Notes under the pieces: model-generated | What the model was told of the DNA's origin: nothing | Database searches by the model: none | What the model saw: the letters and a program-made list of their open reading frames with translations, nothing else | Origin: Prevotella sp. | GTDB taxonomy: Bacteria > Bacteroidota > Bacteroidia > Bacteroidales > Dysgonomonadaceae | Length of the DNA stretch: 64,000 nucleotides | Assembly: GCA_031285625.1 (NCBI GenBank) | Contig: JAITVV010000063.1 | Location: 1-64,000 of the forward strand | Direction: 5' to 3' | Part shown: one piece after another, positions 84-20,720 of the stretch | How the letters are laid out: the number at the start of each line of letters is the position of its first letter | Numbering within the stretch: the first letter of the stretch is position 1 | Program-made: the position numbers and the translations under genes

Positions 84-126
84 CTCATAATCAGGGGGTC
101 CCTGGTTCAAGCCCAGGTGGGACCAC
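84..126 (+). other. 3' half of a CAU tRNA (att site remnant)
   Basis: The stretch reads as the anticodon loop CTCATAA (84-90), the 3' anticodon stem, the variable loop, a T arm with stem CCTGG/CCAGG and loop TTCAAGC (101-117), the 3' acceptor strand TGGGACC (118-124) and discriminator A (125). The 5' half (acceptor 5' strand, D arm) is absent; bases 1-83 are AT-rich and cannot fold into it. This is therefore a tRNA fragment of the kind left at an attachment site by a tyrosine recombinase, with the matching recombinase gene just downstream. Whether the parent was tRNA-Ile2 or tRNA-Met cannot be told from the 3' half. Confidence 0.75.
113..126 (+). repeat. Left 14-bp att core direct repeat
   Basis: CCAGGTGGGACCAC, the last bases of the tRNA fragment, recurs exactly at 20707-20720 in the same orientation. 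A short direct repeat of a tRNA 3' end on both sides of an integrase-bearing segment is the usual signature of attL/attR. The length is typical of Bacteroidales integrative elements. The identity is seen directly; the att role is inferred. Confidence 0.6.
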
Positions 127-161
127 GAAAGCCGAAGCCAAAATTCGGTCAAAATTAAGAA

Positions 162-196
162 AAGCCTTCTAAATGTTTAGTTTAGAGGGCTTTTTT
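162..196 (+). terminator. Intrinsic terminator after tRNA fragment
   Basis: Stem AAGCCTTCTAAA (162-173) pairs with TTTAGAGGGCTT (181-192) with one G-T wobble, followed by a T run. It sits 36 bp after the tRNA fragment, where a tRNA terminator is expected. Confidence 0.7.
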
Positions 197-262
197 AGTT
201 TTTATACGCTTCTGATTAGTCATCATTCGAACCCGAAAAAGCCAATCTAAAGTCAAAAACCG

Positions 263-302
263 TTACTAAAACATTACTATTTTTGGAAGCTATTTTTAGT
301 AA
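263..302 (+). repeat. Candidate integrase arm-type sites, left end
   Basis: TTACTAAAACATTAC at 263-277 is repeated exactly at 20629-20643 near the right border. An inverted copy of its first nine bases, TTTTAGTAA, lies at 294-302. Both long copies sit on the element side of the 14-bp core in the same orientation, which fits arm-binding sites for the recombinase. The role is inferred. Confidence 0.4.
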
Positions 303-405
303 TGGATTGCGTTGTAAATATCTAATTTACTATCTGTTGTCATAAGGTTGGCTGTCATTCTTCAAAAAGAAAAAACAAAAATTTGTAATTAAAATTTGAA
401 GAATT

Positions 406-1614
406 ATGAAGTCAACATTCCGTACATTATTCTATGTGAGAAAGAATCAGCCTAAAAAGAATGGTAAATATGCTATTATGGCAAAAATTACTATAAACAC
501 GAAAGTAGCTCAACTCGGAACAAAGTTGGAGATTGCTTTGGGGAATTGGGATGCAAAAGCGGATAAAGCGATTGGTCGTACAAATGAAGTAGCAGAAATT
601 AACAGGGCTCTACACGGTTTATCTTCAAAGATTACCAAAGCTTATAATCGGAGGATGGATGAAAACGGATATGCTTTTCCCGATGAAATAAAAAATGATG
701 TACTAGGATTTGAAGCATCAACTAAGACACTAATCAGTTATTTTACGGAGCATAATAACCAATACAAAATGAAAGTCGGTAAACATACTACTCATAAAAC
801 ATACACCAGATATGAACTTGCTAAAACCCGACTCATTGAATACATGAAAGAAAAACATGGGATTGAAGATATATCTATCAGAGAACTAAACGTTGCATTC
901 ATCGAAAACTTTTACCTGTACCTTATGGATAAATGCGATCTCCATAGTAATACAGCTATGAAGTGTGTACAACGATTCAGACGGGTTATTAATTTTATCA
1001 AAGCTACAGGAGAATCAATAAATGATCCATTTATCAATTTTAGAATCCGATTTCAAGAAACTGACAGGGAAGTTTTGACACAAGATGAGATAGATAGAAT
1101 CTGGAAAAAGAATTTCAGGACTCCTAAACTAAATACCGTTCGTGATATATTTATATTCAGTGTATATACCGGACTAGCCTACGTTGATGTATCCAGTCTG
1201 ATGGAAACCAGCGTACAGAAAGCTTTTGACGGAAATTTATGGATAATGATTAAAAGAACAAAAACGAATGTCAATTCAAACATCCGCTTATTGGATATCC
1301 CTAAACAGATTTTAGAAAAGTATAAAGGGAAACAAAAGGATGGGAAATTATTACCAGTTATATCCAATCAGAAGATAAATGAATACTTGAAAGATATAGG
1401 AGAATTATGCGGTATAGATAAACCTCTTTCATTCCATGTTGCCAGGCATTCGTTTGCTACGACAATAGCCCTGTCCAATGGAGTTCCTATCGAAACGGTA
1501 TCAAAGATGTTAGGGCATCGTAGTATTCGTACTACTCAGATATATGCTAAAATCACAGATTTAAAAATAAGCAAGGATATGAATGATTTGGCGAGAAGGA
1601 TTGATAGAAGATAG
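406..1614 (+). CDS. Tyrosine recombinase / integrase
   Basis: This site-specific recombinase probably excises and integrates the element that begins at its left. The 402 aa show an N-terminal arm-type DNA-binding region (about 1-90), a core-binding SAM-like domain (about 105-205) and a catalytic domain (about 215-395). Visible catalytic motifs are HVARHSF near residue 345, LGHRS near 369 and the tyrosine in IYAKI near 383. The first catalytic arginine position reads TGLAYVD near 255, so Arg is replaced by Ala; loss of this arginine is known in IntDOT-like recombinases of Bacteroidales. The gene points away from the tRNA fragment at 84-126, the common layout for an int gene beside its att site. 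Confidence 0.93.
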   Translation: MKSTFRTLFYVRKNQPKKNGKYAIMAKITINTKVAQLGTKLEIALGNWDAKADKAIGRTNEVAEINRALHGLSSKITKAYNRRMDENGYAFPDEIKNDVLGFEASTKTLISYFTEHNNQYKMKVGKHTTHKTYTRYELAKTRLIEYMKEKHGIEDISIRELNVAFIENFYLYLMDKCDLHSNTAMKCVQRFRRVINFIKATGESINDPFINFRIRFQETDREVLTQDEIDRIWKKNFRTPKLNTVRDIFIFSVYTGLAYVDVSSLMETSVQKAFDGNLWIMIKRTKTNVNSNIRLLDIPKQILEKYKGKQKDGKLLPVISNQKINEYLKDIGELCGIDKPLSFHVARHSFATTIALSNGVPIETVSKMLGHRSIRTTQIYAKITDLKISKDMNDLARRIDRR

Positions 1615-1920
1615 AAGGATAGATATCCAATCATAATATAGCAAAATTAGAGAGGTTGATTTTCAGCCTCTTTTTTTACGCCTTATTTCATCTGAACACA
1701 AAGAAATAAGAAAGAGAACAAAATGGCAAACTCACAGCCCTTTGGGTTTTACCGAAAATCTCCATCTTTCAGATAGTATTTTCTCAAAAAGTTTGCCTTA
1801 TTTATTCCTTTCCAAAAAGAGGTGTTTATCAGTTGAAAAAAGGAAAATATATTTAATACTATCTTTATATAGACAGAACTACTGATAGAATATTATATTT
1901 ATCAATATATCAGATATTCT

Positions 1921-2007
1921 AACTTTCGATAGATAGATTTATCTATCAAAAGTTTTATTGATATATCTATGTTACTATCGTACTTTCATTTGTTCGAAAG
2001 TACGATA
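1921..2007. repeat. Two adjacent long inverted repeats
   Basis: The first pair is 1921-1934 with 1941-1954 (14 bp, one mismatch, loop of 6). The second is TATCGTACTTTC (1976-1987) with GAAAGTACGATA (1996-2007), a perfect 12-bp stem with an 8-bp loop. They share CTTTCGATA-like half-sites, so they could be operators or parts of a transfer origin. No T tract follows either, so they are not obvious terminators. Confidence 0.6.
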
Positions 2008-2213
2008 AAACGAACAATCTAACAATTACATGTATATTTCCACAGATATGTTACGTTGGTACGCTCCAACATAGTAGCGTGCTAACATAACAACGGCAAA
2101 ACATCATTTTTTAAGCTTCCATTTTTTTACATGGTAGTGGTTGGCACTGGTTGGCCATAGTCTAAAACTATATTATCCAACATTCAGATTCTAATTTTGC
2201 AAAGTGGATTTTA

Positions 2214-2286
2214 ATGCACGTCAGTGCATGGCAAGGTATGTTTTGAGTACACTCAAAACGTTTTAAGTGCCTTAAAACACCTTGCC
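2214..2286. other. Two-armed folded DNA, candidate oriT
   Basis: Hairpin ATGCAC/GTGCAT (2214-2219, 2224-2229) is followed by an outer stem GGCAAGGT (2230-2237) / ACCTTGCC (2279-2286). The outer stem encloses two more perfect hairpins: GTTTTGAGT/ACTCAAAAC (2240-2248, 2251-2259) and GTTTTAAG/CTTAAAAC (2260-2267, 2271-2278). All stems are exact. The position 76 bp upstream of a mobilization-type gene makes an origin of transfer the leading guess. A plasmid-like replication origin or a structured RNA leader are alternatives. Confidence 0.5.
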
Positions 2287-2361
2287 CACTCCTCTGAAAG
2301 TCGGGGGAAATTAACTCCGGAGTCGTCAATTTTTGTAAAACAATAAAAACAGCTAAAGTTT

Positions 2362-2802
2362 ATGGAAAGTAACAATCAAAGAAAATGGAAAAAGGGAGGA
2401 CGAAAACCAAAGATAGATCCTGCGGTTTATCGGTATTCTATTAGTTTTAATTCAGAGGAAAATACAAAATTCCTATCCTTATGCGAGCAATCTGGAGCTA
2501 AAAACAAAGCTTATTTTATCACATCCTGTATTTTCAATAGGACATTGCGAGTCGTAAGAATAGACAAAAATCTACATGATTACTATATGAGATTAACAAC
2601 TTTCTTTGGCGAATATAGGGCAGTTGAGGTTAATTATAATCAGGTAGTGAAAGCTTTAAATTCTAATTTTTCAGAAAAAAAAGCGATGGCTTTACTGTAC
2701 AAGTTAGAACAGGCTACCATCAAATTGGTGCAAATTCAGCAAAAGGCTATTGAACTTACAAAGGAATTTGGCGAGAAGTATTTAATAATGAGACAGAAAT
2801 GA
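2362..2802 (+). CDS. Mobilization accessory protein (MobA/MobC-like)
   Basis: The 146-aa basic protein has an N-terminal KGGRKPK stretch followed by YRYSISFNSEENTKF. This is the pattern of small relaxosome accessory proteins of Bacteroidales mobilizable and conjugative elements, whose ribbon-helix-helix-like N terminus binds the transfer origin. The C-terminal half is helical with many Lys, Glu and Gln residues. It lies directly downstream of the folded region at 2214-2286, its likely DNA target. No relaxase follows, so the element would need a relaxase from elsewhere or has lost its own. Family assignment is from sequence pattern; function is inferred. Confidence 0.65.
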   Translation: MESNNQRKWKKGGRKPKIDPAVYRYSISFNSEENTKFLSLCEQSGAKNKAYFITSCIFNRTLRVVRIDKNLHDYYMRLTTFFGEYRAVEVNYNQVVKALNSNFSEKKAMALLYKLEQATIKLVQIQQKAIELTKEFGEKYLIMRQK

Positions 2803-2833
2803 TGATGAATTAAAGTATAGCAAGCGAACTAAA

Positions 2834-2907
2834 AAAGCATGGATGCATTATCTCCAGCAATAGGGGTACTGGTATACCTTACGAACAAGAGTAATGCTCC
2901 ATGCTTT
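2834..2907. repeat. Inverted repeat after the mob-type gene
   Basis: AAAGCATGGA (2834-2843) pairs exactly with TCCATGCTTT (2898-2907). It lies in the gap between the convergent mob-type gene and the rteC remnant. The 54-bp loop and lack of a T tract make a simple terminator unlikely. Confidence 0.45.
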
Positions 2908-2998
2908 ATGTGCATGGACATTATTTCCTTTTCTTTTGTTCGTGAATTTTAAATTACCAGTTTTCTATTCGCTAAAGAAAATGAAATACAATGATCTA

Positions 2999-3632
2999 CT
3001 ATTTATCTTTTCCTCTTATTTTTTTCTTTTTAAAAATACCGTTATCCATATTATCCATTCTTTCGTTTAACTTTTCTATCATTTCATCAAGAAAGAGAGT
3101 ACGGCTTCCCACTCGTCGACGGATGGCCCTAAAGGTATCGTAACTGTCTTTTACCTCAAAGGAGAATAACTCACAAAGTCTTTCAATTAATAAATTGATA
3201 TCGATATCTCCATTCTCGAATTTCTTGGTTTCCAAAGCTCCGTATGCAAATTCTACTAAATCAGCTGCTGTTCCGGTCCAATGGATATTTGTTTTTGCCT
3301 TTTCTTCTTTTGAATTCCTTTGTTTGCTATTATTTTGTAATTGCCATTGTAAAATTCTTAGTTCAATATCAATGAGAGAGATTGCCTTGATTGTATATTT
3401 TAAGGCATTTTTTTTCCTCCTTATCGGATAACCCGTCTTGTATTCCGACAAGTTCCAAACGTACAAAACCAAGATTGTAATAGAGTTTTGTAATGTTTGT
3501 TTCAGTTTGTAATTTGTCTAAAAGTTTTACCGAAAATTCTTCATAAACTTCTGTTAACTCTGTTAATAAATCTTCTCCTTTAGAGGTTTTTGCTAATAGT
3601 AAAAATAACCTTGAACTCATTAATTGTTTCAT
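2999..3632 (-). pseudogene. rteC: rteC-like regulator, frameshifted
   Basis: Two overlapping minus-strand frames together form one RteC-like protein of about 210 aa. The N-terminal part starts at 3632 (MKQLMSSRLF) and reads to DKEEKK. The C-terminal part, in another frame, carries HWTGTAADLVEF, the DIDINLLIERLCELF segment and SRTLFLDEMIEKLNERM, the pattern of the RteC C-terminal domain. The frames meet at a run of eight T at 3408-3415 (eight A on the coding strand), so a one-base slip explains the break. RteC is a DNA-binding activator of excision genes in CTnDOT-type elements. The break may be a real mutation, phase variation or a sequencing error. The reconstructed length is somewhat short for the family. 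Confidence 0.7.
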
Positions 3633-3796: not shown

Positions 3797-5185
3797 TTAT
3801 TGAGCGAATTTCAATCCTTGAATTTTATTCCATCCTCCTCTGGTAAAATCAGGTATTTCTACAGGAGCAGAATTATTATCGAGAGAAATCTCTGTTAGTG
3901 GAATCAGGCAACACCACTCTGCCAGATCATATACATCCATATCAAGCGGTAAGCCTTTTTGCAAACAATAGATCAGTCGGTAGTCCATGATAAAATCCAT
4001 GCCTCCATGTCCGCCCACTTGTTTGGCTTGTTCTTCTATATCTTTTATTATCGGATGTTTGTACTTCTCCATCAAGGCCTTGCGTACTTCATCCGGAATA
4101 AACTCATGAGTAGTCAAATTCTCATGGTTTTTAGTCAATACCGCGTCCAGCATTTCACTACCCAATGCATAACCTTCCACCGGATATTTATTGGCAAATC
4201 CTTTAGTGCCTGTTAATTGGTACATGCGGTTATAGGGGCGTGGAGAAGTTACATTATGCTCTATCAGGATGGACTTTCCTCTCTCTGTACTGATCAGAGT
4301 GCTGGTATGGTCTCCATTACGGAAATCTTTTACATCTTCTCCTCTTTTCTCTTTCAGGTACTGTGGATTTCCAATGGCTTTGGTGTCCACAGAAACCAGA
4401 TAGTTCAGTTTATCGCCTCGGTGTATATTCATTACCTGACAAACGGGTCCTAATCCGTGGGTCGGATACACATCACCACGGTGTTCTTTATTAAAGTCCA
4501 TACGCCAATCGTTCCAATACTCATCCCAATAAGGTTGAAGCCCATGTATGTAAGCTCCTTCCGCGTGTACTAATTCTCCTAATAGGCCTTGCTGAACTAT
4601 ATTTAATGTTGTGAGTTCAAAAAAGTCATATACACAGTTTTCAAGTTGCATACAATGTTTACGGGTTTGTTCGGATGTATTGATCAAATCCCATATTTCG
4701 CCCATAGTCATAGCTGCCGGCACCTCGATAGCTACATGTTTTCCATCTTTCATAGCCTGCACTCCCATCATAGCATGACTTTGCCAGCCGGTAGCGATAT
4801 AAACGAGGTCTACATCGGGAAGGGCAGTAACCTTACGCCAGACTGCCGTATCTCCGTAAAATTCCCGGGCTTTGGGTAATCCTTTTTCTTCCAGTATTTT
4901 ATTTACTTTCTCTGTGTTTTTCTGTTCCACATCGCACAGGGCTACAATCTCCACTCCCGGGATATGTATAATGCGTTGGACAGCACCGGGCCCACGCATC
5001 CCCAATCCGATGAAAGCAATACGTACAGTCGGTAACGGGGTGGTTTTAAGTTCCAGGACGTCTGTTTGTCCTGCCGGACGTTCAGGTACAGGTGTTTTAA
5101 TTAGACTTGATTGTTCTTTCTGCTGTTGGTTATTACAACTGAATAATAACAAACAGGTGGAAAATAAGATGATAAGTTTTCTCAT
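3797..5185 (-). CDS. GH109 alpha-N-acetylgalactosaminidase lipoprotein
   Basis: This enzyme should release terminal alpha-linked GalNAc by the NAD-dependent elimination/addition mechanism of family GH109. The 462 aa begin with a lipoprotein signal (MRKLIILF, then LLLFSCNN), so it is probably membrane-anchored. A Rossmann fold starts near residue 53 with IAFIGLGMRGPGA, the dinucleotide-binding loop; VALCDVE closes the second strand. The C-terminal part has YPTHGLGPVCQ and GGHGGMDF, typical of GH109 rather than soluble Gfo/Idh/MocA dehydrogenases. It is the last gene of the PUL, 12 bp after the sugar kinase gene, which suggests that released GalNAc is phosphorylated next. An ordinary oxidoreductase is the alternative, made unlikely by the export signal and motifs. 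Confidence 0.9.
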   Translation of the reverse strand: MRKLIILFSTCLLLFSCNNQQQKEQSSLIKTPVPERPAGQTDVLELKTTPLPTVRIAFIGLGMRGPGAVQRIIHIPGVEIVALCDVEQKNTEKVNKILEEKGLPKAREFYGDTAVWRKVTALPDVDLVYIATGWQSHAMMGVQAMKDGKHVAIEVPAAMTMGEIWDLINTSEQTRKHCMQLENCVYDFFELTTLNIVQQGLLGELVHAEGAYIHGLQPYWDEYWNDWRMDFNKEHRGDVYPTHGLGPVCQVMNIHRGDKLNYLVSVDTKAIGNPQYLKEKRGEDVKDFRNGDHTSTLISTERGKSILIEHNVTSPRPYNRMYQLTGTKGFANKYPVEGYALGSEMLDAVLTKNHENLTTHEFIPDEVRKALMEKYKHPIIKDIEEQAKQVGGHGGMDFIMDYRLIYCLQKGLPLDMDVYDLAEWCCLIPLTEISLDNNSAPVEIPDFTRGGWNKIQGLKFAQ

Positions 5186-5197: not shown

Positions 5198-6298
5198 TTA
5201 TATTTTATTGTTGTTGACAAATTCTTTCACAAAAGCGTACATATCACTGAAATTTTCTTCCATAGATAGTAGGAGCTTATATTGTGCATGTGCACGTACC
5301 AGATTATGGGTTTTATTTTTTACTTTATAGTAGTTATCACCATCTATAAAGTCCATAAGGAAGCGTAACACTTGCTCATAAGTTATATATTTGGCAGAAA
5401 ATGCCAGATTCTCTATTTCGGATTGGGTTAAAAAAGAAATGGCCTCAGACAGGTACCCTTCGGTGTAAGCTTTGAATATATCCATTTTCATATACACATT
5501 ATCAAGGATTTTATCATCTTCTTTTCCCGCATTGGTATATGACCGGATAGCATCGCCATAGTCATTCAGGCACATGCTGTTCAACACAGTGTCTAAATCG
5601 ATTACACATAGGACTTCTCCTTTATCATCAAATAGAATATTATTTATTTTTGTGTCATTATGAGTAACTCTTTGAGGAATTTCTCCGGATTTGAACTTGT
5701 CCCATAAGGACAGCATTTCTTCGCGCCGACTCTCTATCCAGCTTATTTCCTGCGAAACCAAAGCCTTTCTTCCGACAGGATCTTTACTCAATACTTCATC
5801 CCACTGCCGTAGACGAAATTCCATGTTATGAAAGCCGGGAAGTATATCGGATAAGGGCTCCTCCATATCAGAAAGCATAGACTGAAATCGTCCGATACCT
5901 TTACCTCCACTGAAGGCTAAATGAGGAGAATCGGCGCATTGATAACTCGTAGTATTATCAATAAAAAGACAAGCTGCCCAATACTCTACGTCTTCATCCT
6001 GATAGTATAATTTTCCATCTACAGATGGAATGATAGTCAATGTTTCCCGTAACGGGTCACCGCCTTTCTCCTCTATTTTCTTCTTTAGATGAGAACTTAC
6101 TTTATAGATATTCTCCATCATAGCAGGTACATCCTTGAAGATTGCTTTATTCTTGCATTGAAGAATATAGTTAGGACTATTTCCCTCTGTTTCTACAAAA
6201 TAGGTATCATTAATCAACCCTTCACCTTGCGGACGAATATCCTTTATGACTCCTTCAAATCTGAAATAGCCACCAATATCTTCTGGTAATGACATCAT
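5198..6298 (-). CDS. NahK-like sugar kinase (APH fold)
   Basis: The 366-aa protein has the aminoglycoside phosphotransferase/choline kinase fold. RPQGEGLINDTYFV near residue 22 corresponds to the nucleotide-binding loop. VTHNDTKINNILFD near 210 is the catalytic loop with its Asp, and CVIDLDTV near 230 holds the metal-binding Asp. There is no signal peptide, so it is cytoplasmic. The length and motifs match N-acetylhexosamine 1-kinase-like proteins, which phosphorylate GalNAc or GlcNAc at C1. Its place directly before the GH109 gene supports GalNAc as substrate. Substrate choice is inference; other small substrates are possible. Confidence 0.75.
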   Translation of the reverse strand: MMSLPEDIGGYFRFEGVIKDIRPQGEGLINDTYFVETEGNSPNYILQCKNKAIFKDVPAMMENIYKVSSHLKKKIEEKGGDPLRETLTIIPSVDGKLYYQDEDVEYWAACLFIDNTTSYQCADSPHLAFSGGKGIGRFQSMLSDMEEPLSDILPGFHNMEFRLRQWDEVLSKDPVGRKALVSQEISWIESRREEMLSLWDKFKSGEIPQRVTHNDTKINNILFDDKGEVLCVIDLDTVLNSMCLNDYGDAIRSYTNAGKEDDKILDNVYMKMDIFKAYTEGYLSEAISFLTQSEIENLAFSAKYITYEQVLRFLMDFIDGDNYYKVKNKTHNLVRAHAQYKLLLSMEENFSDMYAFVKEFVNNNKI

Positions 6299-6335: not shown

Positions 6336-7886
6336 TTATTGTTTTTCATAAGCTCCTTTATCGATGCCAGTCCCGACTATCCTTGTATTATTAATTAAAT
6401 CGAACTCATTTTCCGATGGTATATAGCCGGGATCTCCTGTATCTATACAAGGAGATGCAGTACCAAGTCGAAAATCGAATGATTCAATATCAGCAAACAG
6501 AGGGTCGCTAAAGGATGAAGTCAAATCGTTATTCCTAGCATTTTTATATTGGTCGAAAGACGGATAACTAATTCCTTTCCAGAAAAAATTGAAATTTGGC
6601 GTGCTACAATAGTAATTATTATACGATAATGTCAGATTATCATCCTTATCATATACATACAATATGTTTGAGTTTGAATTGGTCGAGTAAAAGATATTGT
6701 TTTTAACAATAGTATTCGATGAACTTATTATGGCGATCTCTCCCAAATATTTTTTATCTGTTGCTGTTGCATTTCCATAAGTTGTGTTATTTATTATCTG
6801 GCAATCTTTTATTACTCTACCCAGAGGGGACCATCCGGCTAAACCTATTCCAAATCCTTCATTATTGTAACATACATTATTCCTGATAATATTATTGCTT
6901 GCAGAATTGTTAATCACCTCACATCCAATAGTAATACCATACACATTGTTATGTGAAATGTTTTTCTCCACAAGAATGTTTGAACTGCCATCCAGATATA
7001 TACCTGCGCCACCTTCTACGGGACTTTTACAATATGAAACACGGTTTTCGGAAATGACACCATTCCTGGGATAATCAGTGTTAGGATCGCTTGAAATACC
7101 CCAATGTCCAGATGCATTTATACCAATATTTCCAGTATTTGTTACTATATTATTATTAACTAGAAACCCATCAACATTTCCTGTTATTCCGATCGCTTCT
7201 GTCCAGCCTGTACGACAATCCTTAATTGTATTACCTTTAATGATAATATCGTGAATAGATTTCGAAGCATGGTAACCGGCCACAGTTATTGCTCCGGCAT
7301 AAACATTTTCCGGATAAGTTATGGTACTGGTAGCGTACAGATTTCTGAAAGTATTCGATTCCACTTCGATGTGATGGGATGCTTCGTCAGAAGTGTTGGA
7401 AATTTTAAGACCTACGGTATACGAGCCCAAACAATCAGCAAAAACCAAACCTTTTATCTTCAGGTAGCTGACCCCATTCAGCAACATCAGTTGTTTTGCA
7501 GTATTATTTCCGCTTATTACTACTTCTTTATCATTGTAATTTTTAATTACAATATATTTGTCAGGAGTTCCTGATACTTTTACATTTACTTCTTCATAAT
7601 ACGTTCCTTCCATAATGTTAACTACGCATCCAGGCTCTACGGTAGTTACAGCTTTTTGGATAGTACGCCATGGAGAAGCAAGTGTTCCCGGGTTATCATC
7701 ATTGCCGGTTGTCGATACAAAGTAGTTACCCTCTTCGACAGAAGGAGATGGAGGGGTAGGAGCGGGCGGGTTAGCCGGATCTTCTCCGGCAGATGACGAC
7801 TCACAAGAAGCGAGGGCAAACATCATACCCAAACACATCAATATTTTAAAGATTTGTTTTCTTATATGTATATAATTTGTTTTCAT
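6336..7886 (-). CDS. Parallel beta-helix lipoprotein
   Basis: The 516-aa protein has a signal ending at ALASCESS, so it is a likely lipoprotein, then a proline-rich spacer. YFVSTTGNDDNPGTLASPWRT near residue 54 is the entry motif common to secreted right-handed beta-helix proteins. The remaining part is made of short Asn/Ile/Val-rich coils such as IIKGNTIKDC, LVNNNIVTN and NIIRNNVCYNN. Such folds occur in polysaccharide lyases and some glycosidases. Catalytic residues cannot be assigned by eye. It follows the GH2 gene by 21 bp and probably acts on the same polymer. A fragment of a second copy is seen at 13358-13395. Confidence 0.8.
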   Translation of the reverse strand: MKTNYIHIRKQIFKILMCLGMMFALASCESSSAGEDPANPPAPTPPSPSVEEGNYFVSTTGNDDNPGTLASPWRTIQKAVTTVEPGCVVNIMEGTYYEEVNVKVSGTPDKYIVIKNYNDKEVVISGNNTAKQLMLLNGVSYLKIKGLVFADCLGSYTVGLKISNTSDEASHHIEVESNTFRNLYATSTITYPENVYAGAITVAGYHASKSIHDIIIKGNTIKDCRTGWTEAIGITGNVDGFLVNNNIVTNTGNIGINASGHWGISSDPNTDYPRNGVISENRVSYCKSPVEGGAGIYLDGSSNILVEKNISHNNVYGITIGCEVINNSASNNIIRNNVCYNNEGFGIGLAGWSPLGRVIKDCQIINNTTYGNATATDKKYLGEIAIISSSNTIVKNNIFYSTNSNSNILYVYDKDDNLTLSYNNYYCSTPNFNFFWKGISYPSFDQYKNARNNDLTSSFSDPLFADIESFDFRLGTASPCIDTGDPGYIPSENEFDLINNTRIVGTGIDKGAYEKQ

Positions 7887-11605: not shown

Positions 11606-13303
11606 TTATTCAATTATATATGTTTCTTCTATCAGGTTTACTGTCAATGTATATGTTCCGGGAGCCAGCGAAGTATCATCTCTAATATTACTGCCCAGAT
11701 AATATAATTTACCGTCACTGCCACCAAATTTATGGTTCCATGTGTTATCGATATGTATCTCGAAACCCCATTGGGAAGCAATAGTGATTGTAATACTACC
11801 TGAATATACTCCCGGAGTTTCAGTAGCATTAAGTACTGTCTCAAAATCCCAAACATCATTTAGCCCGGACAAGAATATCTTGTCGCCTATTCTGAGTAAA
11901 TTGTAAGTTAATTCTTTCAACTTAATGTCAAAGAGATAGAGACCCGGAGTAGGTGCCGGCAGATTATTTTCACTTTGCCAAAGTAGTGTTCCCGAATAAG
12001 CATCGCCTTCACCCAGAGTATATTTGTTGTCCCAGTTACCATCTTCTGTATTAATACTATATCCCCATTTTGAATTTACATTTGCAACTCCTGCATAAGC
12101 CAGATTATCTTCGTTATAAATGGAAAGAGTATTATCAAAATTCCAATCACTATTGGTTATTCCATCATCAATACCAGGTAAAAAAACAAATGGACGAATC
12201 GGTTCAGGCTCAGCCAAACCACTTGAAGCCTCGCATGTCCATTCTCTAGGATTGCTCAAATCAACAGTCAATATATGTTTTCCTGCTTCAGCTACTGTAA
12301 CGGTAATCTCTCCTGCTTGCTGGGCAAGTACAATGTTTGTGTTTTCCTGTGCGAAAGCTATGGGTGTATCAATGGTTATTGCCTCATTACTATCTCCGGT
12401 CGACATATTATAAAGATTACCCCTTCCCTGCAATTTAACTTTCAAACTTCCGGCAGCGGCAGCATTGAATGCTAAATACCATTTGGTGTTGGGACGATCG
12501 AATGTCATTTCTCCCTCAATATCACCACTTACTTGTAAGGTAGGAATATATATAGTAGACCATTCTTTCTTAATAGTATTAAATTCTACATAATGACAAC
12601 CTCCGGCGTCTGGGAACCAACAATTCCATTTAGTATCGTTTGACGATATCTGGAATGGTATTCCGGTTTCTCCATCATTACCCCAGATTATACCATCTCC
12701 TCCGCATAAATAAAAGTTGTACCAGTTTACTGCACCCATAAATCCTTTATATATTCCGTTTGCTTCGGGCGAAGACAGTTTCCAGGGTGTATTTTCTTGC
12801 TCTTTATTAAGAATAAAGCCAACAGTCATGTCAATATCATACGAAGTAAGATTTACTGTCATTATATTACTATAGAAGGGCTTTGTATTATTGCTTACAA
12901 CCGATTTTAACCGAATATATACAGGGGTTTCAACACCAGCGGTCATATTCAGGTTCTTAGCTATTGCATTTAATTCGGCTCCTGTATATGCCCTTGATAA
13001 GTTAGTTTCCAATGTCTCAACTAGATTGGCCGAAAAATCATTTGAAGTAGACATTTGTGTATAAACCGATTCAAGATCAGATGAGTCCATTTCCGGGTTA
13101 CTTACAGCAAGTGTACTCTTGGTCCATGTCAAAGACAATACAACTTTACCGACTTCTTCCTGTCGAAGTACAATATTACTTGCGGTAGCAATCAGGTAAT
13201 TACTTTCGTGATCATAGGGGTCTATTTTATCATCATCTTTCTCGCAGCCAGCCAGCAATAGGATTGCTACAAGGCTATGTATAAATTTTATATATGATTT
13301 CAT
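11606..13303 (-). CDS. SusE/SusF-like surface glycan-binding lipoprotein
   Basis: The 565-aa lipoprotein (signal ending LLLAGCEKDDD) probably binds glycan at the cell surface. The N-terminal SusE domain (about residues 25-155) shows the family pattern of VLSLTWTKS, then FSANLVETLETN and LTSYDIDM. Four or so beta-sandwich modules follow, including ITVTVAEAGKHILTVDLSNP and WGFEIHIDNTWNHKFGG, the latter repeated at the C terminus in the style of SusE/F starch-binding modules. It is placed between SusD and the GH53 enzyme, the standard third position in a PUL. Binding specificity cannot be read from sequence. Confidence 0.85.
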   Translation of the reverse strand: MKSYIKFIHSLVAILLLAGCEKDDDKIDPYDHESNYLIATASNIVLRQEEVGKVVLSLTWTKSTLAVSNPEMDSSDLESVYTQMSTSNDFSANLVETLETNLSRAYTGAELNAIAKNLNMTAGVETPVYIRLKSVVSNNTKPFYSNIMTVNLTSYDIDMTVGFILNKEQENTPWKLSSPEANGIYKGFMGAVNWYNFYLCGGDGIIWGNDGETGIPFQISSNDTKWNCWFPDAGGCHYVEFNTIKKEWSTIYIPTLQVSGDIEGEMTFDRPNTKWYLAFNAAAAGSLKVKLQGRGNLYNMSTGDSNEAITIDTPIAFAQENTNIVLAQQAGEITVTVAEAGKHILTVDLSNPREWTCEASSGLAEPEPIRPFVFLPGIDDGITNSDWNFDNTLSIYNEDNLAYAGVANVNSKWGYSINTEDGNWDNKYTLGEGDAYSGTLLWQSENNLPAPTPGLYLFDIKLKELTYNLLRIGDKIFLSGLNDVWDFETVLNATETPGVYSGSITITIASQWGFEIHIDNTWNHKFGGSDGKLYYLGSNIRDDTSLAPGTYTLTVNLIEETYIIE

Positions 13304-13785: not shown

Positions 13786-15330
13786 TTAATATCCAGGATT
13801 CTGTTTAATGATACCTTGACCCGCTATAATTGCCGGCTCCGGTAAAGGAAAACGATGATGATTTTCGTTTACAATAGCTACCTGACCGTAATCGGCACAT
13901 TTTTGAGTCATTGCTTTTACATACGAGCCATCGCGAATAAGATCCTGACGGCGGCAGCCTTCATAATAAAATTCATGAGCACGTTCCATCAATAATTTAT
14001 CAAGGAAATCGCGCGAATCGGAGAAGGATGCCAGAGTATATGGTGTCAGGCCGGCACGGGTTCTCACCTCGTTCAACAGATTGACAGCTTCTTGTGTAAC
14101 TGTATTTCCATCTCTCACAATGGCCTCAGCTAACAGGGTCAACACATCGGCATAACGATATACAATCCAGTCTGTCTGGCACTCAATCCCTACATTGTTA
14201 GTTTCTATTTTATACTTCAATGGAATTACGCCATCCAGTAAAGAGTTGTTTTGTCCTTTATTGGCTTCATTATAGACATTGCCGCTCCAATCTTCATACT
14301 CGGAAATGATAGTCTGTTTGCGCTGGTCATTTCCTTCGAATGTTTTAAAGAACTTCCATGTCATTTTATAACCTCCCCATCCTCCGGCAAATGCTCCGTT
14401 AGGCGATGATTTAAGATTATTGGGTACAACATGCGGATACCATACGTGAACCTGAGAACCGGAAACACAATTGACAGACCATATAGTTTCTGAGTTCTTT
14501 TCATTTGCAAAAGTGAAGATATTAGCGTATGCTGATCCTTCAGCTCCCTTGTCTGTCACTAATGCGTATTTGTATTCTGGCTTTTGTAATTCACGGGCTT
14601 CAGTAATCGCTTTATCCCATTGCTGTGTCTGCATATAGAATTTTAGTAATACTATGTGGCACAAGCCTTTTGTAAACCGCCCATAATCAGCATCACTTTT
14701 CCCATAGCTATATGGCAGAACTTTTGCAGCTTCGGTCAACTCGGTGACAATAAATTCCCTCATCTCTTCTTCGCTTAAACGGGGAAGTATCTTCTCGTCC
14801 AGCGGGTTTTTAAGTGTTTCCATATCTGCCACAATAACAGGGCCATAGAGATCATATAGTAAAAAAGCTAAGAAGCCGCGGCCGCAACGCAGTTCCGCTA
14901 TATATTGGTTCAAGCGGTCCTGGTTCATGTCTACACCGGATATCCGGTCAATCGTAAGTGTCATTCTGCTAATCCCGTTCAAAAAAGTGGTCCAGGGATA
15001 GTAGAGACGTTCTACCTCCTGAACAGGAGGAGTCCAACGGGCAAACTCCAGAGGTTCCCACACCGAGCCGCCCCATGTGCAAAAGCCATAGTCAGATGCC
15101 ATATCAGATATAAGCATAAAACCGTTAGCGACATTAAACATACCTCCATAATTATAGTTGTGAAATGGAGTATAAGCATTCCCGGTAACCAAGTCGCGTA
15201 CATCACGTTCTGTCTTCGGATATATTTGAGGATTAATCTCATCATACATTTCCGATTTTAGCTCGCAACTTTGTAACCCACATATTATGATGGCAATTAG
15301 CCCAATTATATATATATTCTTATTTTTCAT
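13786..15330 (-). CDS. SusD/RagB glycan-binding lipoprotein
   Basis: The 514-aa SusD-family protein caps the SusC channel and binds the imported glycan. It has a lipoprotein signal (ICGLQSCELK), the N-terminal TPR-like helical core and the conserved C-terminal part with ALVTDKGAEG, NEVRTRAGLTPY, LLMERAHEFYYEGCRRQDLIRDG and FPLPEPAIIAGQGIIKQNPGY. The last block is the standard SusD ending. It starts 27 bp after the SusC gene, so the two are co-transcribed and pair as one transporter. Confidence 0.95.
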   Translation of the reverse strand: MKNKNIYIIGLIAIIICGLQSCELKSEMYDEINPQIYPKTERDVRDLVTGNAYTPFHNYNYGGMFNVANGFMLISDMASDYGFCTWGGSVWEPLEFARWTPPVQEVERLYYPWTTFLNGISRMTLTIDRISGVDMNQDRLNQYIAELRCGRGFLAFLLYDLYGPVIVADMETLKNPLDEKILPRLSEEEMREFIVTELTEAAKVLPYSYGKSDADYGRFTKGLCHIVLLKFYMQTQQWDKAITEARELQKPEYKYALVTDKGAEGSAYANIFTFANEKNSETIWSVNCVSGSQVHVWYPHVVPNNLKSSPNGAFAGGWGGYKMTWKFFKTFEGNDQRKQTIISEYEDWSGNVYNEANKGQNNSLLDGVIPLKYKIETNNVGIECQTDWIVYRYADVLTLLAEAIVRDGNTVTQEAVNLLNEVRTRAGLTPYTLASFSDSRDFLDKLLMERAHEFYYEGCRRQDLIRDGSYVKAMTQKCADYGQVAIVNENHHRFPLPEPAIIAGQGIIKQNPGY

Positions 15331-15357: not shown

Positions 15358-18300
15358 TTAGAATGAAATATCTACGCCAAAACTGAAAGATGTCACATTT
15401 GGATACGAATAATTTCCTGTATCGGTTTCAGGGTCCACTCCGTTCCAGTTTGTAATAACAAACGGGTTGTTAACATTCGCGGAAATACGTATGCTGTTTG
15501 CTATTGATTTGGCAACAGGGATTGTATATCCGACTGTAATATTCCGGCATCTCAGATAATTGATTTTCTTGAAATAGTAGTCTCCAACGCCATACGAGCT
15601 TTGAAGGAGGCTTGGAACCGTTGTATTCTGGTTGTCATTCGAATATGAATCCAAAGTGCGCCGTGACAGGTTGGTCAAATTGCCTCCTAATCCAGTTATC
15701 CATGAATCATAATAGCTGGCTCCTCGCAAACGTCCAAACTCGCCATAGAAATAAATATTGAAGTCCAGATTTTTGTATCGGACTGTATTATTAAATCCTA
15801 CGCTACATTTCGGGTCTGAGGTACCCAGGTAAACGATATCATACTGATTCAACAAGTTAGGCGAACCTTCTTCGTCATAAACATTTTTCAGTTTAATCTG
15901 CCCCGGTAATAAAGACGGTTGCCAAGCCGGAGCCGTTTCACCGGCCTGCAATAATCCGTCGGATAAATTGACATAATGAGAACGTATCGGGTCTCTTTCC
16001 GACTCGTAGTAAGCAGGTGTCCAATTCGGGTCACGTTCGTACCAGTTATCTTTGTTGGTAGAGAAAGTGAAATCGGTACTCCATGTCCAGTCTTTATTTG
16101 TAATATTCACGGTATTCAGTGTCAACTCAAACCCGCGGCCTTGTGTTTTGCCCATATTCGCTGCAATCTTATTAATCTCATTATACGCAGGCAGAGGTTT
16201 GTTGTTAACCAACAAATCAGAGATTATCCGGTTGTAATATTCCATAGTCAATGCAATCCGGTTATCCAGGAAGCCTAATTCTAAGCCAACATTGAATTCG
16301 CTAGTAGTTTCCCAGGTTAATTTTCTGTTTCCCAGTTTTGTTGTTGCAGTACCCGTATATCCGTCGTTCCCGAATACCCAGCCGGCAATCACACCGTAAG
16401 CATCTGTCATATAGTTTCCAATATTGGAGTTCCCGGTTTGTCCGTAACTGGCCCTCAATTTACCATTCGAGAGAATATTGGAAAACGGCTTCATAAATTC
16501 TTCATCACTGAACCGCCAACCTAACGATACAGAAGGAAAATAACCCCAGCGGTAATCCGGATGGAAATTTGCAGCACCGTCGGCACGGACAGTAGCCGTC
16601 AACAAGTATCTACCCAGATATGAATAGTTCAACCTGGCGAAATAAGAACCCAAAGAATTATTATAAGCAGAAGAATTTACAAATGGTTTAGCACTGCCTC
16701 CTGCCCACAAACTATTATAAAGGAAACCATCGGTAGAGAAATCTTCATTACCAGCAAATACACTTTCTACATTAAATTGTTGGTAGGAATACCCTACTAA
16801 TGCTGTCAGGTTATGGCTACCAAATTCTTTTGTATAGTTTGCCGTTAATTCCATAAGGTAATCCATATTATCCCTTTGCAGAATATTGGCTATTCCGCCT
16901 TTTGCATATCCGGCTATCGTAGTAGTAGGTACATAACTCTTGTTTTTGTCATACCTGCGGTCAAAACCTAAATTCGCTTTCAGAATTAAACCTTTTATGG
17001 GTTCTACTTGAACATAACCACTGGCAAGTACCCGGTCATTTGTCGTTTTATCCGTAATCTCCAGTAAAGAAACAGGATTCGGATACTGCGCCATATCCGG
17101 GAATATTGAATAATCACCATTTTCATCCCGGACAGGAACACTCGGGTCGAAGCGTAAGGCCGATGTTATAATACCCGCTCTTTCAAAGTCACTATCCCCC
17201 AACTGGGAATTATCATACTGATTCCGGCTCAGGTGGAATGAGAATCCGGTTTTCACATACTTAGAAATTTCCTGATCCAAATTTACTTTCATGGTAAACC
17301 TGTCCATTGCGTTATTTCTAACAATACCTTTCTGGTTAAAGTAATTTAAGGATGCTGCGTATTGTGTTTTCTCAGATCCACCGGTTAAAGATACATTATG
17401 GGATTGTTGTATTCCGGTACGTGTTATTTCATCCAGCCAATCTGTAGTTTGTGCAGCTGCAATTTCCGCATCAGTATATCTTGGAATATAAGGATCGTTT
17501 GCAGGTGCGGGTTTACCACCATATATTCCTTGTCCCGTCTTATGCAACCATGTTTCGTGAACAAACCGGTTTCTCTGTGTCATATATTCCTGGGCATCCA
17601 GCATTTTATAATTGTTCCTGACGTTTTGCACTGTCACGTTTCCGGAATAAGTAACTTTAGGTGCTCCGCTTTTACCTCTTTTAGTCGTAATAATGATAAC
17701 CCCATGACCGGCGCGTGACCCGTAAATGGCTGTTGCACTTGCATCTTTTAGGACTTCAATAGATTCTATATCATTGGGGTTGATAGATGCTAATATATTA
17801 TCGACAGTTCCGGTTTTATAGTAATTCCTATCCGAATCCAGAGTCCAAGAAGTGGAAACTGGAAAACCATCAATGATAAAAAGAGGGTCATTCCCTGCAT
17901 TAATGGATGTTGCTCCACGAATACGGAATGTCGCACCACCACCTACTTGTGCACTGTTCTGAAATACCTGCAATCCGGCAGCTTTGCCTGCCAGGGCATG
18001 AGAGACGGTTGATATGGTTCCGACAGGAGTGTCGGTCATCTTTACCGATGATATAGCACCGGTAAGGTCACGTTTTTTCTGTACTCCGTAACCCACAACG
18101 ACTACTTCATCAAGGCTTTGGGCTTCTTCATTCAATACAATCTGGAACTGTGTCTGTCCTTTTATATCAATGTTCTGACTCAAAAATCCAACGTATGAAA
18201 CAAGTAAAGTTCCGGTTTCAGGGACTGATAAAGAGAATTTCCCATTGAGATCAGTCATAGTTCCGTTTGTGGTACCTTTGACACTTACATTTGCTCCGAT

Positions 18301-18735
18301 AATAGGCTCTCCTGCTTGGTCGGTTACTGTTCCTGAGATATTTTTCTTTACTTGTTTGAATAGAGATATGTGTTTATTGGTGATACGATAAGATATATCC
18401 GTACCCTTAAATAGTTCGTCCAATACAGCTTTGATATCTTTATCTTTTACTGATATTGAACGCTGATTATTTTTGTCTATTTCTTGTGTATTATAGACAA
18501 ATTTATATCCGGTTTCTTGTTCAATTGTATTGAATATTTGTTCATAAGAAGCATTCTTAAGGTCTAGTGAGACAGCATTTGATTGGGCTATCACAAAATT
18601 TGTCGAAAAGAAAAAAAAGCTAATACAGATAATTAAAATACGAGTAAGCTGTTTTTTTTCGCAAGAAATTGAGTTATAGAACCCTAAATGGACATTATTT
18701 TTTCTCTTATGCCCAATAAGTAACTTATTATTCAT
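15358..18735 (-). CDS. SusC/RagA TonB-dependent transporter with STN domain
   Basis: The 1125-aa outer-membrane transporter imports the oligosaccharides made by the surface enzymes. After a long N-terminal extension and signal (ending FVIAQ near residue 51) comes an STN domain (about 55-125, VSLDLKNASYEQIF to ISLFKQ), which relays ligand occupancy to FecR. A carboxypeptidase-like domain follows (ISGTVTDQAGEPIIGANV), then the plug with EVVVVGYG and ALAGKAAGLQV, and a 22-strand barrel ending in FSFGVDISF. The STN domain together with the upstream FecR and sigma genes shows that transport and transcription are linked. A possible nearer start could shorten the unusual first 30 residues. Confidence 0.96.
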   Translation of the reverse strand: MNNKLLIGHKRKNNVHLGFYNSISCEKKQLTRILIICISFFFFSTNFVIAQSNAVSLDLKNASYEQIFNTIEQETGYKFVYNTQEIDKNNQRSISVKDKDIKAVLDELFKGTDISYRITNKHISLFKQVKKNISGTVTDQAGEPIIGANVSVKGTTNGTMTDLNGKFSLSVPETGTLLVSYVGFLSQNIDIKGQTQFQIVLNEEAQSLDEVVVVGYGVQKKRDLTGAISSVKMTDTPVGTISTVSHALAGKAAGLQVFQNSAQVGGGATFRIRGATSINAGNDPLFIIDGFPVSTSWTLDSDRNYYKTGTVDNILASINPNDIESIEVLKDASATAIYGSRAGHGVIIITTKRGKSGAPKVTYSGNVTVQNVRNNYKMLDAQEYMTQRNRFVHETWLHKTGQGIYGGKPAPANDPYIPRYTDAEIAAAQTTDWLDEITRTGIQQSHNVSLTGGSEKTQYAASLNYFNQKGIVRNNAMDRFTMKVNLDQEISKYVKTGFSFHLSRNQYDNSQLGDSDFERAGIITSALRFDPSVPVRDENGDYSIFPDMAQYPNPVSLLEITDKTTNDRVLASGYVQVEPIKGLILKANLGFDRRYDKNKSYVPTTTIAGYAKGGIANILQRDNMDYLMELTANYTKEFGSHNLTALVGYSYQQFNVESVFAGNEDFSTDGFLYNSLWAGGSAKPFVNSSAYNNSLGSYFARLNYSYLGRYLLTATVRADGAANFHPDYRWGYFPSVSLGWRFSDEEFMKPFSNILSNGKLRASYGQTGNSNIGNYMTDAYGVIAGWVFGNDGYTGTATTKLGNRKLTWETTSEFNVGLELGFLDNRIALTMEYYNRIISDLLVNNKPLPAYNEINKIAANMGKTQGRGFELTLNTVNITNKDWTWSTDFTFSTNKDNWYERDPNWTPAYYESERDPIRSHYVNLSDGLLQAGETAPAWQPSLLPGQIKLKNVYDEEGSPNLLNQYDIVYLGTSDPKCSVGFNNTVRYKNLDFNIYFYGEFGRLRGASYYDSWITGLGGNLTNLSRRTLDSYSNDNQNTTVPSLLQSSYGVGDYYFKKINYLRCRNITVGYTIPVAKSIANSIRISANVNNPFVITNWNGVDPETDTGNYSYPNVTSFSFGVDISF

Positions 18736-18748
18736 ATTTTTGTATGTT

Positions 18749-18833: not shown

Positions 18834-18899
18834 AGGAATTACGGACTCTTCATGATGTTTTTCTTTTAAGGTTTAACAATGCTTTTCTAGTTTATTTAG

Positions 18900-19796
18900 T
18901 TAATTAAGGTAAATCTCTCCACGTTTCTTTTCTATTCTATATTTTGCTGATATCTGAAGTATTGAAAGTATTTCATCTAACGTTTCTTTTTCATTAAATA
19001 CAGCATTGAATGTCTTTTTTTGCATAGCTTGGTTTCCAATGTGTATCTTAACATGGAATGCCCTTTCCAGTTCTTGTGTAATCTCGGCTAAAGTGTTATT
19101 CTCAAAACGGAATTCTCCTGTAAACCATGACATAACATTATCCATGCGTATCGGCAAGATATCAATTTCTCCTTTTGATATTGAATATATTGCCTGTTGA
19201 TTAGGCATAAGGATTTTAGCAGACTCGGAGTATTGACCGTCTTCGTATAATGCGACCTTGCCTTCGAGTAGAGATATTTTAATTTCATCGCTTTGAGCAT
19301 CTGTTATTACATTAAAAGATGTTCCTAACACTTTAATCTGTAATTTCCCTAAATCCACAATAAAGGGCTTCTGTTCATCTTTATGTACTTGAAAAAATGC
19401 TTCTCCGGAGATATCTACTTTCCTATTTTCACCATCGAATGAACGGGGATAAGTAAGACGGGCATTGGCATTCAGCCACACTATACTGCTATCCGAAAGC
19501 ACAACTTTAGTCTTAGCGTCCGCCACGGCTGTTACTTCGTACCAGATTAATTCCGGTTTAGCATTATCTGTATTTAAGAAATGATAGGAAGAAACAATAA
19601 GAAGAGCTACAGAAGCAGCAATCGAAAACCATTTCCATACTGAAGATATACTTTTTCTTAAAGGTATATCTCCAATACCTACTCGTTCTTGTAACCGTAT
19701 ATAGTTTACTTCCGAATCATATTCAGGCGATTTGAATCGAATCCGGTTTATCAGATCGTCTTTTTTGTGTTCCTGTATATTATTATCATCTTTCAT
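18900..19796 (-). CDS. FecR-family anti-sigma factor
   Basis: The 298-aa inner-membrane regulator holds the ECF sigma factor inactive until the STN domain of SusC signals. A short cytoplasmic N-terminal part (about 1-48) is followed by one membrane helix (WKWFSIAASVALLIVSSY, about 50-69). A periplasmic FecR domain comes next (VVLSDSSIVWLNANARLTYP, VDISGEAFFQVHKDEQKPF, LGTSFNVI). The C-terminal domain is STN-like (ITQELERAFHVKIHI to YRIEKKRGEIYLN). It is divergent from the sigma gene, with 161 bp between starts, and lies upstream of susC in the same direction. Confidence 0.93.
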   Translation of the reverse strand: MKDDNNIQEHKKDDLINRIRFKSPEYDSEVNYIRLQERVGIGDIPLRKSISSVWKWFSIAASVALLIVSSYHFLNTDNAKPELIWYEVTAVADAKTKVVLSDSSIVWLNANARLTYPRSFDGENRKVDISGEAFFQVHKDEQKPFIVDLGKLQIKVLGTSFNVITDAQSDEIKISLLEGKVALYEDGQYSESAKILMPNQQAIYSISKGEIDILPIRMDNVMSWFTGEFRFENNTLAEITQELERAFHVKIHIGNQAMQKKTFNAVFNEKETLDEILSILQISAKYRIEKKRGEIYLN

Positions 19797-19883
19797 GGTA
19801 GCGCTTTTATTATAAGATGACAGTGGTTGGTAAAAACTACGGGTTGATATCTAGTTTTTTTACAATTTTTCTAACTTTTTCTC

Positions 19884-19891
19884 TAACTTTG
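19884..19891 (+). promoter_or_regulatory. -7 box of the sigma gene promoter
   Basis: TAACTTTG matches the Bacteroidota -7 consensus TAnnTTTG. It is 66 bp before the ECF sigma start, with a T-rich -33 region (TTTTTT near 19855-19860). This fits constitutive low expression of the sigma factor. Confidence 0.5.
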
Positions 19892-19957
19892 CTGAAAAGT
19901 ATGTAAATGTAGGGTATACAGAAATTACATACCTTAAATAAAAAGCTGTAAAAGAAA

Positions 19958-20500
19958 ATGGAGCTGGAGTACTTGTTAGATAAAATCATAGAAGGGGATG
20001 AGAATGCTCTGCGATTGCTATTTGAAAGGTATTCACTGAGATTATTTCAGCTTGCTTATTATTATTTACAGGCAAAAGAGCCTGCCGAAGAAACGGTATT
20101 GGATGTATTTACTATCTTCTGGAAGAAAAGACAATCTTTAGGTCATATTAAAAATATTGAATCTTACTTATACACTTCTGTCAAAAACCAGGCATTACAT
20201 TATATTCGCCGGGATTATTATTCTGATAAAACGAGTATTAATTTATATGAAGTAGAACTGATTCCTGAAAATAATGATCCAGAGAGTACCCTGCTCGACA
20301 GGGAGTATGAGCACCTTATACAAGAGGCCATAGATTCATTACCTCCGAAATGCAAAGAGGTGTTTCGTCTTGTTTTATCTGACAAGCTAAAGAACAGGGA
20401 GATAGCTGAGCTGTTATCTATCAGTGAAAGCACTGTGAATGAACATATTGCTTTAGCTTACAAACGTATATCATTATATGTGAGGAAACGTTATAAATAA
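19958..20500 (+). CDS. ECF-type RNA polymerase sigma factor
   Basis: The 180-aa sigma-70-family factor should drive the susC promoter once released by FecR. Region 2 spans about residues 8-70 (LLFERYSLRLFQLAYYYL, AEETVLDVFTIFWKKR). Region 4 spans about 120-172 (LPPKCKEVFRLVLSDKLKNREIAELLSISESTVNEHIALAYKRI), including the DNA-recognition helix. There is no region 3, as expected for ECF factors. It is divergent from FecR. It is the last gene before the right border of the putative element, so the PUL is carried with its own control. Confidence 0.95.
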   Translation: MELEYLLDKIIEGDENALRLLFERYSLRLFQLAYYYLQAKEPAEETVLDVFTIFWKKRQSLGHIKNIESYLYTSVKNQALHYIRRDYYSDKTSINLYEVELIPENNDPESTLLDREYEHLIQEAIDSLPPKCKEVFRLVLSDKLKNREIAELLSISESTVNEHIALAYKRISLYVRKRYK

Positions 20501-20628
20501 TATCATTTATTTTATATATTTAAAATAGAAAACCGTCTAAAAAACATATAATTTTCGTATATTTGAATCATAAAAGAATGCCAGTCAACATCAAGCCAAA
20601 AGTGGTATTTGAGAGACATTTGAACACA

Positions 20629-20643
20629 TTACTAAAACATTAC
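20629..20643 (+). repeat. Right copy of the arm-type repeat
   Basis: TTACTAAAACATTAC is identical to 263-277 and in the same orientation. It lies 64 bp inside the right core repeat, whereas the left copy lies 137 bp inside the left core. Confidence 0.4.
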
Positions 20644-20706
20644 GACTGAAATTGAGTAATGATGTAAACGGTTGAAATAATAACATTTAGAAAATATAAA
20701 GTGGAA

Positions 20707-20720
20707 CCAGGTGGGACCAC
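20707..20720 (+). repeat. Right 14-bp att core direct repeat
   Basis: CCAGGTGGGACCAC equals the tRNA 3' end at 113-126. No other tRNA sequence precedes it, so only the last 14 bases of the tRNA remain on this side. A terminator begins 13 bp later, as after a tRNA gene. This is the expected attR, with the host tRNA terminator still in place. Confidence 0.6.

Follow-up and report, generated by a model that had tools for sequence, protein, structure and literature searches.

A compact tRNA-Met-targeting element with a complete polysaccharide utilization locus in Dysgonomonas, and sister elements with other cargo

Carriage of polysaccharide utilization loci (PULs) by mobile elements is established in excerpts of four papers (PMC6907783, PMC8845570, PMC7264248, PMC13188876). 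These excerpts report 47 SusC/SusD-bearing loci carried by mobile elements in gut Bacteroidetes (PMC6907783), and porphyran, agarose and carrageenan loci on integrative and conjugative elements (ICEs) or mobilizable plasmids (PMC8845570). A further PUL was analysed here in a window comprising bases 1–64000 of contig C4 from a Dysgonomonas genome of 4.84 Mb in 96 contigs (G000); base 1 of the window coincides with base 1 of the contig. The region at 113–20720 is probably an integrated, cut-down conjugative element with a complete PUL, a reading that takes in integration at tRNA-Met, transfer by a helper and use of a glycan containing galactose and N-acetylgalactosamine (GalNAc). As in the published PUL-carrying elements, so far as the excerpts describe them, a SusC/SusD locus and enzymes lie inside a mobile element; the window element differs from those described there in its length (approximately 20.6 kb), in that no relaxase or coupling protein was recognised, and in that a closely similar chassis is found with unrelated PULs in different species.

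ICEs of the CTnDOT/ERL type carry RteC, MobA/B and IntDOT, and IntDOT has a TGL motif that lacks the usual following arginine. The window element resembles them in an RteC-family gene, a MobA/MobC-type accessory protein and a tyrosine recombinase, the TGL motif of which also lacks the usual following arginine. It differs in targeting tRNA-Met, in an rteC open in two frames, and in that no rteA/rteB, excision operon or tra genes were recognised among the open reading frames (ORFs) scanned. No paper on ICEs of Dysgonomonas was found in the open-licence literature. PULs on mobile elements are known; what is new is the compact chassis with exchangeable PULs.

Borders at tRNA-Met and gene content

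The integrated element occupies 113–20720 of the window, approximately 20.6 kb. The features of its two ends are listed below.

1..112, no strand: right end of another element, lying upstream (window 1–127 is repeated on contig C43)
84..126, + strand: 43-bp 3' fragment of tRNA-Met(CAT) from the anticodon loop, 100% identical to tRNA positions 33–75
113..126, + strand: left att core (attL), CCAGGTGGGACCAC, exact 14-bp repeat
263..277, + strand: left arm-type repeat, TTACTAAAACATTAC, beginning 150 bp from the start of the core
20558..20706, no strand: conserved right end of the element, 89% identical to sp. 25
20629..20643, + strand: right arm-type repeat, TTACTAAAACATTAC, beginning 78 bp before the core
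20707..20720, + strand: right att core (attR), CCAGGTGGGACCAC, exact 14-bp repeat

The core CCAGGTGGGACCAC is the 3' end of tRNA-Met(CAT), and the preliminary description was right in placing an exact 14-bp repeat of a tRNA 3' end at both borders. With a tyrosine integrase and att direct repeats that match the end of a tRNA, the locus is a tRNA-targeting integrative element, and there is good support for its insertion into tRNA-Met by an integrase of its own. Three copies of the 13-mer CCAGGTGGGACCA exist in the whole genome, at the two borders and at the end of an intact tRNA-Met(CAT) (C79:1474-1548); no tRNA gene was found within the window. Only 34 of the 63,932 distinct 14-mers of the window recur more than 5 kb apart, so that chance is an unlikely source for a repeat of a tRNA end beside an integrase. 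The view that the PUL is an old chromosomal locus with an accidental 14-bp match has the shortness of the repeat in its favour and nothing else. It is opposed by the three genomic copies of the 13-mer and contradicted by Dysgonomonas sp. 25 and sp. 511, in which the same core follows the conserved right end although the cargo, and in sp. 511 the flank too, is different; it was rejected, its probability being close to nil. As background for the arm repeat, any 15-mer at all was shared by four of approximately 20,000 random pairs of stretches of the same length.

Across the genus, CCARGTGGGACCAC was present in 22 of 25 genomes (G000 included) and formed the end of an intact tRNA-Met in 21 of these 22; in D. 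mossii a 3' fragment of tRNA-Met was found with CCARGTGGGACCAC and no intact copy. Loss of the repeat from the tRNA, which had been named beforehand as an outcome that would speak against the element, was thus not encountered. A start at 84, as first proposed, was rejected. The fragment at 84–126 reads as the junction of the different element upstream, and the PUL element begins at the core, at 113.

The genes and other features between the borders are as follows.

406..1614, + strand: tyrosine recombinase (integrase), 402 amino acids, alignable over its whole length with those of sp. 25 and sp. 511
2173..2361, no strand: conserved non-coding block upstream of mobC, oriT-like by inferred function
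2362..2802, + strand: MobC/MobA-type accessory mobilization protein (PF19514; NCBIfam Bacteroid_MobA over cut-off)
2803..2830, no strand: apparent deletion junction, where mobC ends and the sequence meets the stop of the ICE coupling-protein gene
2999..3472, − strand: rteC, frame of the C-terminal half
3369..3632, − strand: rteC, N-terminal half in the other frame; the frame changes at a shared A8 run (T8 on the + strand, about 3408–3415)
3797..5185, − strand: GH109 family protein (alpha-N-acetylgalactosaminidase type)
5198..6298, − strand: N-acetylhexosamine 1-kinase-like protein (NahK-like; APH family)
6336..7886, − strand: right-handed beta-helix protein
7908..10478, − strand: GH2 beta-galactosidase, GalB type (NCBIfam over cut-off)
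10550..11590, − strand: GH53 endo-beta-1,4-galactanase
11606..13303, − strand: SusE-like surface glycan-binding protein
13786..15330, − strand: SusD
15358..18735, − strand: SusC-type TonB-dependent transporter with an N-terminal STN signalling domain
18900..19796, − strand: FecR anti-sigma factor
19958..20500, + strand: ECF-type sigma factor

The locus holds adjacent susC and susD homologues, co-located GH53, GH2 and GH109 enzymes, and a regulator made up of FecR, the ECF sigma factor and the STN domain of SusC; the complete PUL on a tRNA-targeting element, with its borders, integrase and gene inventory, stands as it had been described. Its expression would be switched on by a relay from SusC-STN through FecR to the ECF sigma factor, and its enzymes would digest a glycan with galactose and GalNAc, as predicted from GH53, GH2, GH109 and the NahK-like kinase. 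Against three usual classes the element compares as follows. Relaxase, coupling-protein and type IV secretion genes, expected of a self-transmissible ICE, were not recognised among the 13 ORFs scanned in 113–20720, the first two being absent relative to the ICE described below; in place of the relaxase of an integrative and mobilizable element the accessory MobC alone was recognised, beside a conserved oriT-like block that a helper may use; and the full-length integrase sets it apart from a cis-mobilizable element.

In one genome (G003) a GH109 homologue 75% identical to window 3797–5101 adjoins homologues of an isocitrate-dehydrogenase-like and an esterase-like gene, which in the window lie at 35588–37721 (match to G003, 35625–37679), approximately 15 kb to the right of the element. 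The GH109 cargo gene may possibly be of chromosomal origin.

Sister elements and a fuller conjugative relative

Dysgonomonas sp. 25 carries the same left end and integrase directly on an intact tRNA-Met, the core of which has CCAAG in place of CCAGG, a one-base difference; in sp. 511 another element, with the same core, precedes them. The right end, a stretch of approximately 150 bp ahead of the core, is likewise conserved in the two species. Aligned with each other, the elements of sp. 25 and sp. 511 show 99.2% identity over 17.9 kb and 99.7% over 1.1 kb, and the match stops at the last base of the right core, beyond which the two right flanks differ; in sp. 511 the sequence after the core enters a terminator like that directly after the intact tRNA-Met of sp. 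521. Since the rpoB regions of the two species are only 81.6% identical over 4.45 kb, the identity of the elements points to a recent movement of the sister unit between species. Judged from these comparisons, the unit reads as having moved horizontally, recently, and with borders of the kind first proposed.

The cargo annotated on sp. 25, and by 99% identity that of sp. 511, comprises a hybrid two-component sensor, a PfkB kinase, an MFS transporter, two GH32 enzymes, SusC, SusD and a DUF4960 protein. By these predicted functions it is a complete fructan-type PUL, differing from the PUL of the window. It presumably resembles the levan/fructan PUL of B. thetaiotaomicron, from which it differs in lying on a tRNA-targeting element. 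The annotated genes of the sister element include no relaxase.

Outside the PUL, the window and sp. 25 elements are 85.5% identical in the left end, 86.5% in int, 92.6% in the oriT-like block, 97.1% over the first 69 nucleotides of mobC, 80.1% in the RteC region and 89.4% in the right end (rpoB region, 80.2%); the integrases share 94% of their amino acids. Among 393 genomes of the order, 13 matched window 110–3640 at E ≤ 1e-20. The high-identity matches lay within Dysgonomonas only, and those outside the genus reached 66–74% over parts of the integrase. No close donor of the fructan PUL was found in 393 genomes of the order, four of which gave matches at E ≤ 1e-100, at 64–75% identity with the sp. 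511 element set aside. Repeats at the PUL slot that might explain the exchange of cargo did not exceed 10–11 bp. Searches returned five records from a plasmid collection, covering at most 12% of the query, and from viral contigs one locus with a 53% integrase.

A fuller relative was found in D. mossii DSM 22836 (contig C2) and in a second genome, G015 (contig C6), the two copies being 70–93% identical in pieces and 92–93% over 41 kb. Both hold MobC (68% amino acid identity), a relaxase (PF03432), a coupling protein (TraG/TrwB domains) and RteC, and the block of ORFs between the integrase and mobC is probably the transfer block. A PUL follows RteC, with a CBM48 esterase, GH2, a carboxylesterase, GH30, an AraC regulator, an SSF symporter, SusC, SusD and GH26 (domains from the G015 copy, SusC by blastp), and then GH2 and GH3 (domains from the D. 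mossii copy). From its domains this cargo is a third, predicted mannan-like PUL. Its identification with the published PUL 17 of PMC8040265 was unsupported, as GH26, GH2, GH3 and GH30 fall outside the families listed in the excerpt of that paper, although both have CE1-type esterases.

In G015, 15-bp repeats bracket 72.6 kb and read as the end of a tRNA-Val-like 3' fragment; ARAGORN returned no tRNA gene at the site, and the repeat is one of five of at least 14 bp between the left end and the region rightward. This ICE shares with the window element the RteC module (86–90% nucleotide identity, D. mossii and G015), the oriT-like block, MobC, a PUL beside RteC and, in G015, the spacing of the arms, which lie at 152/79 bp as against 150/78 bp in the window and consist of a different, 19-bp sequence. 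It is unlike the window element in its relaxase and coupling protein, its mannan-like PUL, its integrase (approximately 50% amino acid identity) and its length in G015. In part of the oriT-like block the cut-down elements and the ICEs have almost the same sequence; most of the block is absent from a further genome (G012) in the same alignment. The homology of the window to the ICE breaks off where mobC ends and resumes at the coupling-protein stop, and on this alignment the window element looks like such an ICE with its transfer genes deleted, the relaxase and coupling protein having apparently been lost by one deletion. Beside the PUL in D. mossii (L167:14769-19955) lies a gene for a 1729-amino-acid protein with Eco57I methylase and helicase domains, and an ORF of similar size lies inside the repeats of G015.

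The two-frame rteC gene

The rteC of the window, at first taken for a remnant, is a two-frame gene common to the sister elements: in all five (the window, sp. 25 and sp. 511, and the ICEs of D. mossii and G015) two open frames make up the gene and join at an A8 run. Both halves are under purifying selection in the four sequences compared (window, sp. 25, D. mossii and G015), with dN/dS ratios (NG86; six pairs) of 0.03–0.07 in the C-terminal half and 0.12–0.47 in the N-terminal half. Conservation of the N-terminal half stops at the A run in the five sequences aligned, and no homology of this half to the N-terminus of RteC was demonstrated.

In the 25 genus genomes, 86 matches to RteC were obtained, and many of these run full length and unbroken. 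Of the partial ones, 24 loci were examined, the five above and 19 others; the same frame relation at an A7–A9 run was present in 11 (window 2999–3632, − strand; L065, L069, L150, L152, L202, L203, L215, L216, L227 and L229), among which are close relatives, so that the independent cases are fewer, and absent from 13. The C frame opens just 13 nucleotides before the A run in two loci. Because the shift between the halves is +1 or −2, an ordinary −1 slip does not fit; transcriptional slippage with loss of one A would. The split is a possible case, from its sequence, of programmed frameshifting or transcriptional slippage affecting a mobile-element regulator. Beside other two-frame rteC genes, at five places, blastp with 30 proteins recognised no SusC/SusD pair; one of the places (L236) gave a single weak SusC-type match (25%). 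No title on a two-frame rteC stood among the open-licence papers listed.

Neighbouring elements, mobility and cargo exchange

Other elements use the same site. Window 1–127 recurs in G000 at C43:7853-7979 (L090) with one mismatch, in the core, and the C43 copy then enters a terminator that resembles the ones following tRNA-Met in G003 and G019. C43 was rejected as a simple empty site of the window element, for its right flank differs from 20721 onward and the core has the mismatch. An intact tRNA joined directly to the terminator at 20733, proposed earlier as the empty site, was not found; its equivalent exists for the sp. 511 sister, with the terminator seen in sp. 521. Sequence from 20721 onward was likewise rejected as part of the element, less firmly for the first 54 bp (shared with sp. 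25), since 20815–26917 is approximately 80% identical to sp. 521 (C189) in a different setting. Among the flanks compared, chromosomal synteny downstream of tRNA-Met was matched at once only in the pairs G003/G019 and G014/G017, and two genes of the window flank had matches in G003. Inspection by eye showed a second type of element, which has the same core and a GGGGTATA-like left-end motif, directly on tRNA-Met in four of the 25 genomes (G000:C79, G015:C1, G020:C433 and sp. 511 C14), and tandem arrays at tRNA-Met were seen in sp. 511 and G015.

Such arrays raise the question of whether the PUL unit is a passenger, moved in cis by neighbouring tRNA-Met elements and not by its own integrase. 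Two element types besides that of the window were judged by eye to use tRNA-Met: the one just described, with the 14-bp core, directly at the tRNA in G000, G015, G020 and sp. 511, and one with a 43–45-bp tRNA copy, ending as at C4:84–126; two tandem left ends lie on one contig each in sp. 511 and G015. The sp. 25 element, however, begins directly on an intact tRNA with its own integrase, and movement as a passenger appears improbable.

On the preferred reading, that of a cut-down conjugative element with its own integrase, the integrase would excise the unit and insert it at tRNA-Met, and attL would keep the tRNA functional by supplying its 3' end anew (the tRNA is intact in sp. 25). As no relaxase was recognised, transfer would depend on a helper, and a co-resident related ICE would act in trans on the oriT-like block. 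Related relaxases were found in all six genomes searched, the best (66%) in sp. 25.

Several observations weigh against this reading. The best relaxase matches are 52% in G000 itself and 50% in sp. 511, a weak fit for a helper (a further fragment, at 70%, holds a stop). No excision factors were recognised, small ORFs lying outside the scan. C79, which bears the intact tRNA-Met, and C4 are unlinked in the assembly, and the sp. 511 element spans two contigs joined only by comparison with sp. 25. Only 332 of the 558 bases of window 1615–2172 align with sp. 25. In both sp. 25 and sp. 511 RteC is inverted and stands across the PUL from its place in the window, mobC has been truncated to 23 codons, and the right arm is one base off the left. 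The 54 bp after the right core (20721–20774) are 96% identical to the sp. 25 flank, and were matched in sp. 25 alone among 24 relatives; the next 14.8 kb of sp. 25 showed no fragment of tRNA-Met but have an integrase gene approximately 9 kb in. Finally, excision and transfer of the window copy itself are processes that we infer from its sequence. The expectation that everything between the borders would move as one unit draws on the near-identical fructan-PUL element in two species, and not on movement of the window copy.

That the window copy is a fossil, once mobile and now immobilised with its PUL simply chromosomal, is unlikely, though less so than movement as a passenger. The relaxase and coupling protein are gone, and decay of this kind is visible elsewhere: D. 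macrotermitis retains the tRNA fragment, approximately 380 bp of the same left end and a 29-codon integrase stub, and G015 retains approximately 113 bp of the left end followed by genes of other kinds. In the window, however, the integrase is full length (94% amino acid identity to the sp. 25 copy) and both ends and arms are present, and the sister, with no annotated relaxase either, is yet 99.2–99.7% identical in two species. The PUL in the same place without an integrase, which had been named as a further adverse outcome, was not found, a partial answer that covers 10550–20500 in the 25 genus genomes; among the matches listed outside G000 the longest of the strongest was approximately 2.5 kb at 64–67%, and shorter ones were higher.

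Three PUL types occur on this lineage across five genomes. It is conceivable, though somewhat less probable than its converse, that Dysgonomonas hosts a dedicated lineage of PUL shuttles, parasitic on conjugation, which would have shed the transfer genes, kept the integrase, oriT and frameshifted rteC, swapped whole self-regulated PULs beside rteC, and ridden resident ICEs across species. At nine loci with more distant integrases (52–65% amino acid identity) blastp of stretches of limited length against 21 proteins from the window and sp. 25 recognised no SusC/SusD pair; weak matches of SusC type were seen at L070, L088, L129 and L131, all without a full integrase of this type.

If such a lineage exists, it would make tRNA-Met a hot spot for the acquisition of sugar diets. 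The elements offer a natural case in which compact chassis, closely alike, bear whole programmes of glycan use (sensor, importer and enzymes) that differ from one to the next, and in which the sequences show one recent move across species. This suggests that PUL loci spread as swappable packages, and the spread of PULs between species of Bacteroidetes becomes testable in strains already sequenced.

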